From Marinitoga piezophila KA3 (GTDB lineage Bacteria; Thermotogota; Thermotogae; Petrotogales; Petrotogaceae), in contig NC_016751.1 of NCBI RefSeq assembly GCF_000255135.1, forward strand, positions 62,001-126,000: a stretch of 64,000 nucleotides of DNA. Direction: 5' to 3'. Under the pieces are notes generated by a model. That model was not told the origin of the DNA. It did no database searches and saw only the letters and a list, made by a program, of their open reading frames with translations. Below are positions 17,003-19,693 of this stretch, one piece after another. How positions within the stretch are numbered: position 1 is the stretch's first letter; each line of letters starts with the position of its first letter. A program made the position numbers and the translations under genes.

Positions 17003-17037
17003 AAAATTCCCTGGTATTTAGCCCAGGGAATTTTTTA
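17003..17037. terminator. Bidirectional terminator between convergent genes
   Basis: AATTCCCTGG / CCAGGGAATT stem flanked by A and T tracts, serving both the + strand exported-protein gene and the - strand metI. Confidence 0.9.
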
Positions 17038-17679
17038 TAATAACAATTTTTTTTCAATATTTTTTCCTATAGCCTGTATTAATTGTGTAATAGATATTAA
17101 AATAATAATATCATAAATTAAAACATCAAATCTAAATCGTTGATAGCCGTAATTTATAGCCATAGCACCAAGACCTCCAGCACCAACAGCACCGGCAATT
17201 GCGGTATAGGTTATAAGATTAATTAATAATAAAGTTATATCAGAAACTATTTTTGGTAAAGTTTCAGGCAACAACATTTTTAATATAAATTCTGTATTAT
17301 TCATTCCAAGAGTATGTGCGGTATCAAGCATTTCTTTAGGAAGAGAATTAAATGTATTTTCACTTAATCTGGCCATAAAAGGAATAGCAGCTATAGTTAG
17401 TGAAACAACTGCTGATTTTGGACCTATAATTGTTCCGGCTATTAATTTAGTTAAAGGAATAACAAGCACAATTAAAATTATAAAAGGTATAGATCTAAAA
17501 ATATTTATAAATCCATCAAGAATTCTATAAATAATTCTTGAAATTGTATCATTATTAATAGAAGTTAAATACAATAATATTCCAATTGGAATTCCAAAAA
17601 CAACGCTTAGAAAACCTGAAAAAAATGTCATATAAAGGGTTTCTAACGTAGCTTTTAGTAATTCATTATAAATATGCAT
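17035..17679 (-). CDS. metI: Methionine ABC transporter permease
   Basis: 214 aa with five predicted membrane segments and the EAA-type loop LPKEMLDTAHTLGMNNTEFI, typical of MetI. A frame extends 26 codons further upstream, but ATG 17679 is preceded by GGAGGTG at good spacing and gives the family N-terminus (MHIYNELLKATLETLYMTF). It forms the inner-membrane channel of the MetNIQ importer for methionine. Last gene of metQ-metN-metI. Confidence 0.92.
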   Translation of the reverse strand: MHIYNELLKATLETLYMTFFSGFLSVVFGIPIGILLYLTSINNDTISRIIYRILDGFINIFRSIPFIILIVLVIPLTKLIAGTIIGPKSAVVSLTIAAIPFMARLSENTFNSLPKEMLDTAHTLGMNNTEFILKMLLPETLPKIVSDITLLLINLITYTAIAGAVGAGGLGAMAINYGYQRFRFDVLIYDIIILISITQLIQAIGKNIEKKLLL

Positions 17680-17680
17680 C

Positions 17681-18658
17681 TTATAACACCTCCAGGGAAT
17701 AAACGTGTTTTTGTAAATCATATATAAATTCCTTTGCTCCGTTTCCCTCAATTTCAATTATAAGTTTTCCAAAAGGTGCATTTTTAAATTCTTCTATTTT
17801 TCCGTATAAAATATTAAAAGTAATATTATATTTTTTTGCAATGTTATAAAGAATAGGTTTTTCAACATTGTTTCCATAAAAGATAATTTTTATAATCTTG
17901 CCAGTTCTTTCTTTTAATTTATTATAATTAAAATTAACATCCTTATAGAATTCATTATTTAATTCATTTTCAAATTCTGAGAAGAATTTATAAACTTCTC
18001 CATAATAATAAACTCTTCCGTTTTTCAAATATAGTATTTTATCGCAAATTCTTTTTATTACATCCATTTCATGAGTGATAATAATAGTTGAAATGGCCAT
18101 TTCTATATTTATTTTTAATATTAATTCAAGTATTTTTTCAGTAGTTTTTGGATCAAGCGCAGATGTAGGTTCATCAAGGAACAAAATATCAGGATTTGAG
18201 ACAATTGCTCTTGCAATTGACACTCTTTGTTTTTCTCCACCTGATAATTGTGATGGAAAAGCTTTAATTCGGTGATCAAGACCAATTTTTTTTATAATAT
18301 CAATGACTCTTTTTTCAATATTTCTTTCTTTATTAAGAATAAGAGGCAAAGCAATATTATCAAAAACATTTTTTCTTGATAACAAATTATAATGTTGAAA
18401 TGCAACGCCTATTTTTTTTCGAATTTTTCTTAAATCTCTACCTGATAATGAGGTTAAATCAATATTGTTAAATAGAATTTTTCCCTCAGGTCTTTTTAAA
18501 AGAGTTAAAGCTCTCAATAAGGAGGACTTTCCGGCTCCGGAAAGTCCTATTATCCCAACGATTTCGCCTTTTTTTATATTAAAATTAATATCTTTTAAAA
18601 TGTAATTTAATCCATCATATGTAAGATTCAAGTTTTTAACTTCAAGCAAAACATTCAC
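17681..18658 (-). CDS. metN: Methionine ABC transporter ATPase with NIL domain
   Basis: 325 aa. Walker A GLSGAGKSS, signature LSGGEKQRVSIARA, Walker B ILFLDEPTSALD and the H-loop in TIIITHEMDV are all intact. Residues about 245-325 form an ACT-like NIL domain, which in MetN binds methionine and inhibits transport when internal methionine is high. It ends one base before the metI start codon and begins five bases after metQ. Controlled by the attenuator upstream of metQ. Confidence 0.95.
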   Translation of the reverse strand: MNVLLEVKNLNLTYDGLNYILKDINFNIKKGEIVGIIGLSGAGKSSLLRALTLLKRPEGKILFNNIDLTSLSGRDLRKIRKKIGVAFQHYNLLSRKNVFDNIALPLILNKERNIEKRVIDIIKKIGLDHRIKAFPSQLSGGEKQRVSIARAIVSNPDILFLDEPTSALDPKTTEKILELILKINIEMAISTIIITHEMDVIKRICDKILYLKNGRVYYYGEVYKFFSEFENELNNEFYKDVNFNYNKLKERTGKIIKIIFYGNNVEKPILYNIAKKYNITFNILYGKIEEFKNAPFGKLIIEIEGNGAKEFIYDLQKHVYSLEVL

Positions 18659-18663
18659 ACTCC

Positions 18664-19455
18664 TTAAAATACTGGAACAACAGCCCCATTATATTTTTCT
18701 AATATAAACTCCTTTACCTTCTGACTTTGCAATAATTCAATTAACTTTTTTAATTGTTTATTATTTTTATTTTTTTCTTTTACTGCAATAATATTTGCAT
18801 ATGGTGAATTTGCATCTTCAATAAAAATAGCATCCTGCAAAGGATTTAAACCATTTTCAATAGCATAATTTGTATTAATAACTGCACCAACAACAGTATT
18901 ATCTTCTTTGTAAGTTCTTGGAAGATATGCAGCGTCCAATTCTACAAAATTTAAATTATATTTATTATCTTTAATATCCGTTATTGTTACTTTCAATGAA
19001 TTTGTTGATTTAAGGGTGATTAAACCATTTTTTGCAAGTAATAATAAAGCTCTTCCTTCATTAGTTGCATCATTAGGAATAACAACCTTATCACCGGATT
19101 TAAATTCTGATAATTGTTTTTTAGAATAAAAACCCATTGGTTCAACATGAATTTTAGCAACGGCAATTAAATCGGTATATCCTTTATTTTTTGAAAATTC
19201 TTCTAAATAGGGAATATGTTGAAAATAATTAGCATCAATCTGTTCTTCTTCTAACGCGATATTAGGCTGTACATAATCATTAAAAACAACAATATCTAAT
19301 TTATATCCCGTTTCCTTTTCAAAATCATTTTTAACAAATTCTAGAATTTCAGCGTGCGGAATAGCTGTAGCTCCGATTTTAAAAACTTTCTCTTTTTCAC
19401 TACATCCCATCAATACCAATAAAATTCCTACCAGAATAAATACCACTTTTTTCAT
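18664..19455 (-). CDS. metQ: Methionine-binding lipoprotein
   Basis: 263 aa NlpA/MetQ family. The lipoprotein signal is MKKVVFILVGILLVLMGC, with C18 as the lipidated residue. Conserved segments include IGATAIPHAEILEFVK, NYFQHIPYLEEF and IPNDATNEGRALLLL, the last two lining the methionine site. It captures methionine outside the inner membrane and hands it to MetI. ATG follows GGAGGT. First gene of the operon, just after a leader with a transcription terminator, and the point at which the leader decision takes effect. Confidence 0.95.
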   Translation of the reverse strand: MKKVVFILVGILLVLMGCSEKEKVFKIGATAIPHAEILEFVKNDFEKETGYKLDIVVFNDYVQPNIALEEEQIDANYFQHIPYLEEFSKNKGYTDLIAVAKIHVEPMGFYSKKQLSEFKSGDKVVIPNDATNEGRALLLLAKNGLITLKSTNSLKVTITDIKDNKYNLNFVELDAAYLPRTYKEDNTVVGAVINTNYAIENGLNPLQDAIFIEDANSPYANIIAVKEKNKNNKQLKKLIELLQSQKVKEFILEKYNGAVVPVF

Positions 19456-19481: not shown

Positions 19482-19519
19482 AAAAAAAAGAAGGCCGATT
19501 ATTTCTAATCGGCCTTCTC
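19482..19519 (-). terminator. Attenuator terminator upstream of metQ
   Basis: On the - strand AGAAGGCCGATTA, a short loop and TAATCGGCCTTCT form a strong stem followed by eight T residues, 27 bases before the metQ start. Its 5' arm (19511-19519) is also the partner of the upstream antiterminator segment at 19563-19575, so the two structures exclude each other. Confidence 0.92.
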
Positions 19520-19531
19520 AATTAAAACCAC

Positions 19532-19639
19532 TCAGCACGAAAACAGTGTGGCATTAATCTTCATTAGAGAAGACCGCAAATGCCACATCATCATCATATT
19601 TACTTTATATAAAAATTCAAATGTTGAAAAATTTTTCAT
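19532..19639 (-). CDS. Leader peptide with four consecutive Met codons (metQNI attenuator)
   Basis: 35-codon ORF with its own Shine-Dalgarno (GAGGTGA, 19644-19650) and ATG 19639. Codons 15-18 are ATG ATG ATG ATG (19586-19597), then Trp-His; the stop TGA is 13 bases before the 5' arm of the terminator stem. The start lies about 20 bases after the predicted transcription start. The peptide itself is not expected to have a function: a ribosome stalling at the Met run for lack of charged tRNA-Met would change RNA folding downstream. This layout matches trp/his-type leaders, here for methionine. No SAM riboswitch or T-box consensus is visible. Confidence 0.85.
   Translation of the reverse strand: MKNFSTFEFLYKVNMMMMWHLRSSLMKINATLFSC
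19547..19587 (-). promoter_or_regulatory. Leader hairpin beginning at the Met run, enclosing the antiterminator segment
   Basis: On the - strand TGTGGCATT (19579-19587), starting in the last Met codon, pairs perfectly with AATGCCACA (19547-19555). Its loop contains GGTCTTCTCTAAT (19563-19575), which can instead pair with ATTGAGAAGGCC (19511-19522): nine consecutive pairs including one G-U, then three more after a bulge. Ribosome stalling on the Met codons would cover the first arm, free the loop segment and let the antiterminator form. Confidence 0.75.
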
Positions 19640-19664
19640 AAAATCACCTCTGTAATTTTTTACG

Positions 19665-19693
19665 ATTTTAACATAAATAAAGTCAAATGTCAA
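19665..19693 (-). promoter_or_regulatory. Promoter of the metQNI leader
   Basis: On the - strand: -35 TTGACA (19688-19693), 17-base spacer, -10 TAAAAT (19665-19670) with TG one base upstream of it (19672-19673). The closest match to a full housekeeping promoter in the window. Confidence 0.88.

Follow-up and report, generated by a model that had tools for sequence, protein, structure and literature searches.

A predicted methionine leader-peptide attenuator ahead of metQNI in Marinitoga piezophila KA3 and its counterparts across the Thermotogota

Introduction

Most reports of attenuators comparable in structure to the leader considered here come from Proteobacteria, Actinobacteria and Firmicutes. 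Codon-based sensing is awkward for methionine, because each leader has to begin with Met and translation initiation itself requires methionine. A methionine T-box, which binds tRNA directly and contains no open reading frame (ORF), would respond to uncharged tRNA-Met ahead of methionine genes. Leader peptides were long deemed limited to Proteobacteria and Actinobacteria, His leaders being later found in Firmicutes (PMC2965389), and in a 2013 survey the attenuators held in Rfam were only those for His, Leu, Thr and Trp (PMC3766115). For methionine, a possible metL leader was annotated in 2021 before metNIQ of S. lividans, with no recognisable terminator (PMC8079986). A full-text literature search, covering little subscription content, returned no Met leader attenuator besides S. 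lividans metL and does not settle priority; the view of an earlier note on this DNA, that such an attenuator is undescribed, holds in the literature searched for one with a terminator, but the S. lividans annotation precedes it (PMC8079986).

Results

The window, i.e. the whole 64-kb stretch of M. piezophila KA3 DNA that was analysed, carries the following features.

19821-19745, tRNA-Cys upstream of the leader, with its own terminator at 19744-19715
19665..19693, - strand, sigma-70-type promoter TTGACA-N17-TAAAAT, assigned by consensus match only: -35 box TTGACA 19693-19688, 17-nt spacer, -10 box TAAAAT 19670-19665
19644..19650, - strand, Shine-Dalgarno sequence GAGGTGA of the leader ORF
19532..19639, - strand, leader ORF, 35 codons plus TGA, peptide MKNFSTFEFLYKVNMMMMWHLRSSLMKINATLFSC, with the Met-run position kept in relatives
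19586..19597, - strand, four consecutive ATG regulatory codons, ATGATGATGATG
19547..19587, - strand, protector hairpin, arms TGTGGCATT (19587-19579) and AATGCCACA (19555-19547)
19567..19576, - strand, antiterminator 5' strand CGGTCTTCTC, inside the protector (complementarity p = 0.007)
19510..19519, - strand, antiterminator 3' strand GAGAAGGCCG, which is also the terminator 5' arm
19482..19519, - strand, intrinsic terminator, stem-loop 19519-19488 followed by a T-run
18664..19455, - strand, metQ, NlpA-family methionine-binding lipoprotein (PF03180, 5e-88; TIGR00363, 1.8e-62, below the curated cut-off)
17681..18658, - strand, metN, ABC ATPase with C-terminal NIL domain (ABC_tran and NIL; best NCBIfam match MetN, below the curated cut-off)
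17035..17757, - strand, metI, MetI-type permease (NF008049, 4e-56, below the curated cut-off), whose true start probably lies inside this annotated ORF

The earlier note had described this order of parts, from a promoter with 17-base spacing to a terminator that shares its 5' arm with an antiterminator and reads into metQ-metN-metI, and every part was found where it had been placed. The promoter agrees with the consensus at 11 of 12 positions and is the top-scoring promoter-like site of the region; since the upstream tRNA-Cys has its own terminator, metQNI is most simply transcribed from it. Direct reading confirmed the Shine-Dalgarno sequence and the ORF, whose run of four ATG codons is unique in the window on both strands (shuffle expectation 0.03 per window). 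The protector 5' arm begins inside the last of these codons, where a ribosome on the Met codons could cover it (a relation that is weaker in some relatives), and an inner GGTCTTC/GAAGATT pairing lengthens the stem. Compared with dinucleotide shuffles, the whole leader folds with z = -7.6 (protector hairpin and terminator), the protector segment with z = -3.1 and the terminator with z = -8.3, while the segment that lacks the protector's first arm bases and runs up to the terminator 5' arm folds as the CGGUCUUCUC/GAGAAGGCCG antiterminator (z = -4.1; 10 bp, G-U pairs included). Antiterminator and terminator are mutually exclusive, having one strand in common, and the identities of the three downstream genes are supported by their domain matches.

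At the gathering score, Rfam matches in the window were the upstream tRNA and RNase P only, and the Met leaders of the window and its relatives matched no Rfam family. The S-box aptamer of a SAM-I riboswitch was not found by this search, nor was any T-box in the window or the relatives, and both candidates were rejected. Further leaders in the strain's own genome (G000, 2.24 Mb) were sought through gene searches: MetH is present and its operon has no Met leader. Because family searches of this genome returned no HcyBio, no MetE and no clear PF01053 sulphydrylase, MetQNI uptake is probably its main methionine source.

The comparison set comprised 103 Thermotogota genomes, including the congener Marinitoga lauensis, which was also one of the three relatives in a scan of named genomes. 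Of the 103, 42 (8 families, 17 genera) have a Met-rich leader ORF with a terminator behind it; 46 leaders were catalogued under one rule, and L156, identified by eye, is the 47th. The promoter and the short ORF led by a Shine-Dalgarno sequence are kept in relatives, as are the clustered Met codons, and in 46/46 leaders the stop codon lies 12-31 bases ahead of the terminator. The genes behind the leaders, namely metQ, a metQ paralogue, aspartokinase/HcyBio (DUF39) homocysteine operons and a metH operon, all serve methionine supply. Leader peptides vary (MMMMW, MMMYGNALVSSGA, MMAMMMWRTDR, MIMCxxAP) and Met codons are constant at the protector 5' arm, Met being the sole residue common to all groups. 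Loss of the Met run with retention of the helices, which would have spoken against the earlier note's reading, is the opposite of what we found: helices and peptides vary between families and the Met codons are fixed. In the alignment that the note had proposed, the Met codons are indeed conserved, but covariation of the helices within groups is too weak to count, because close relatives are nearly identical, and we therefore relied on comparison between groups.

A metQ gene is present in 30 of the 103 genomes, and a Met-rich leader with terminator was found at 19 metQ loci and 4 metQ-paralogue loci, the leader peptides reading MMMMW and MMMW in the genus of the window and MCMPW, MMMPW, MMMCRPL, MNMIMCTSAP, MMMYGNALVSSGA and MVMCREAP elsewhere. 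Every metQ locus that lacks a Met leader and has upstream DNA available carries a SAM-I riboswitch (9/9), three further loci (L013, L029, L041) being left unassigned as their contigs end upstream of or inside the gene. In the metQ protein tree the SAM-I loci cluster as a single group (support 99/95), consistent with one change, and under midpoint rooting this group is nested among the Met-leader loci; no SAM-I riboswitch was found in the strain's own genome or in any of the 7 genomes of its genus. In M. lauensis (L038, G002:C9) metQ is frameshifted in the assembly, perhaps by a sequencing error, and the Met leader is intact. At L170 (G003:C1:686500-694500), metQNI is followed by genes resembling cystathionine beta-synthase, a PF01053 lyase, a methyltransferase and SAH hydrolase, which suggests a methionine-to-cysteine cluster beside the transporter.

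Covariance models built from two leader groups (R1 and R2) were used to search the phylum, and matched strongly ahead of HcyBio (PF01837) operons with NIL-ferredoxin and a UPF0280/COG2122-type protein, ahead of aspartokinase-then-HcyBio operons, and ahead of a MetH operon whose first gene resembles the MetH activation domain by eye and has no Pfam match. Weak R1 matches (E > ~1e-5) were, among those read, mostly ordinary terminators. In Desulfovibrio, DUF39/HcyBio, NIL-ferredoxin and COG2122 proteins make homocysteine (PMC5764234). A phylum search with PF01837 returned 35 genomes whose upstream regions were then read: 23 HcyBio-type operons have a Met leader, 2 a SAM-I riboswitch without a clear Met leader, 8 neither, and 2 are unassigned. 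Typical peptides beyond metQ are MMAMMMWRTDR, MMPMMMWC, MMIMCGMW, MMNTMMMRMM and MMMRWKAPG; no Met leader was seen upstream of the HcyBio/metH operons of f3 g29/g30, f4 g20, g35 and one g24 genome. A single genome has both controls: at L131 (G007, 2700-2300, - strand) aspartokinase-HcyBio is preceded first by a promoter and a SAM-I aptamer that has its own terminator, and next by a Met leader (MNMWMCG) and a second terminator, apparently two gates in series. At L150 (G011:C1, ~114681-115200) a SAM-I riboswitch stands before an ORF whose Met codons are scattered and which has no ATG near its Shine-Dalgarno sequence, and a terminator comes next; this looks like a similar tandem with a decaying Met leader. 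At L143 (G050:C1:1188600-1196147) a distance of ~1.5 kb separates aspartokinase from the Met leader and terminator upstream of it; the intervening stretch was not seen in relatives and may be an insertion that has cut the switch off from its gene.

Several weak R2 matches turned out to be Asn leaders. Asn-rich leaders (NNNNNN, NNNSWPGSVS) stand ahead of an AsnRS-like asparagine synthetase A (NF005054), and 36 of the 39 loci scanned have two or more Asn codons side by side, the strain's own genome included (MKIRTIIIKVNNFNNNINQRWWNAR, L204:425-560, G000:C2:934200-935800). Such leaders were noted at L078-L081, L085-L091 and L174-L214, many of them with a terminator that the scan detected. They are apparently Asn-specific attenuators across Thermotogota, of which we found no description in the literature searched. 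At L100 (G010:C2, leader near 125764), MFINSLNVNNNWWWHLT, with its WWW run, and a terminator precede trpB; this leader would be a Trp attenuator in Thermotogota. The leader residue thus tracks the pathway, Asn leaders standing before asparagine synthetase A and the Trp run before trpB.

Dinucleotide shuffles were the reference for the segment that follows the Met run in 26 representatives: on the whole this segment is more complementary to the terminator 5' arm than its shuffles (Fisher p 3e-19), and the protector likewise folds better (Fisher p 3e-10), both values being overstated because the representatives are related and not independent; in two of them (L098, L011) the antiterminator p is only ~0.27-0.29. 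A ribosome placed on the Met codons gives a median antiterminator gain of ~-12.6 kcal/mol, as against -1.1 at the stop codon, and the protector changes from -20.3 kcal/mol with the ribosome 6 codons upstream to -14.3 at the Met run, a loss of ~6. For 13 of the 46 leaders (L004 and L011 included) a ribosome on the Met codons brings no improvement in the computed gain over the ribosome-free RNA. In most leaders, equilibrium folding of the truncated RNA places the Met cluster close to the 3' edge of those codons that permit the antiterminator. Equilibrium folding alone fails as a predictor of ribosome-free termination, since the terminator 5' arm stays paired upstream (mean 0.71); termination without translation therefore rests on the protector folding first, an order that is standard in the trp scheme (PMC1183508).

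Discussion

With a probability of roughly 0.9, we read the metQNI leader as a methionine-specific, ribosome-mediated transcription attenuator. From the parts, their conservation and placement, the alternative pairings and the downstream genes we infer that the ribosome stalls, that readthrough responds to methionine, and where transcription starts and terminates in vivo, as follows. RNA polymerase would initiate at the promoter and a ribosome would translate the leader ORF behind it. When charged elongator tRNA-Met is ample, the ribosome would clear the four Met codons and cover or pass the antiterminator strand, so that the terminator forms and metQNI is off. When Met-tRNA is scarce, it would wait on the Met run and mask the protector 5' arm, so that CGGUCUUCUC could pair with GAGAAGGCCG while the terminator 3' arm is still to be synthesized; the antiterminator thus formed would allow readthrough into metQNI. 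In an untranslated leader the protector would form first and transcription would terminate. Severe starvation could block such a sensor, because initiation also needs methionine. The attenuation proposed in the earlier note gains support, at the level of sequence, from Met codons that stay fixed at the protector while helices and peptides change, from the exchange with SAM-I in one metQ clade, and from its recurrence before other methionine genes.

Ribosome-arresting peptides have precedents in plant CGS1 and bacterial TnaC, and a nascent Met-rich peptide might arrest the ribosome on free methionine or SAM, with no sensing of charged tRNA by Met codons. Leader ends are well conserved inside groups, e.g. 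MMMYGNALVSSGA and MMAMMMWRTDR, as such a peptide would predict; between groups, however, only Met is common and the flanks are wholly different, and the C-terminal conservation falls where the ORF overlaps the protector and the antiterminator, so that it is explained at the RNA level. Moreover, if abundant methionine caused the arrest, uptake and synthesis would be turned on when methionine is plentiful, and we consider this explanation very unlikely. Still less credible is a fixed terminator of constant leakage with an ORF that has no role: the strong folding of the terminator would suit it, but antiterminator pairing and Met placement recur in 8 families, and the Met run precedes methionine genes as the Asn run precedes an asparagine gene. 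Least likely of all is a SAM- or methionine-binding riboswitch of unknown class with an accidental ORF, since, even if the locus interchanges with SAM-I riboswitches, there is neither an Rfam match nor a nucleotide motif common to the groups besides the ATG codons, and every group retains an ORF led by a Shine-Dalgarno sequence with a Met run ending at the protector.

We judge the Met attenuator, as far as comparative sequence analysis can tell, to be real, widespread and conserved, a known mechanism in which the amino acid, the phylum and the regulon are new. A Met-codon sensor would thus be widespread in one phylum, governing uptake plus an unusual homocysteine route, and Met leaders could flag methionine genes in poorly annotated thermophiles. 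We lean slightly towards the broader view that Thermotogota rely on phylum-wide leader-peptide attenuators for several amino acids (Met, Asn, Trp, perhaps more) and not on riboswitches or T-boxes; the Met member would sense elongator Met-tRNA despite the fMet start, with a two-phase response (on under mild limitation, off under severe), and the tandem with SAM-I could be a two-input gate.

Among described systems, the trp, his, leu and thr attenuators of Proteobacteria share with the Marinitoga leader an ORF with tandem codons for the pathway amino acid, the protector, antiterminator and terminator, and the pathway genes downstream; the Marinitoga leader differs in its use of Met, which is also needed for initiation, in its Thermotogota host, and in having no sequence relation to them. 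In S. lividans, too, a Met leader peptide, metL, has been proposed for this transporter (PMC8079986), but, compared via the published peptide, it is a leaderless 29-aa peptide ending in CMCRRMCAF, with no Met run, in one genome, and its authors found no typical terminator. The SAM-I riboswitch (S box, RF00162) shares transcriptional control of the same genes and, in relatives from the same family (f1), the same position before metQ and HcyBio operons; unlike the Met leader, it senses SAM directly. Under midpoint rooting it replaced the Met leader at metQ once, and one genome has both in series at another locus, which opens to direct study the choice between SAM and Met-tRNA as the signal.
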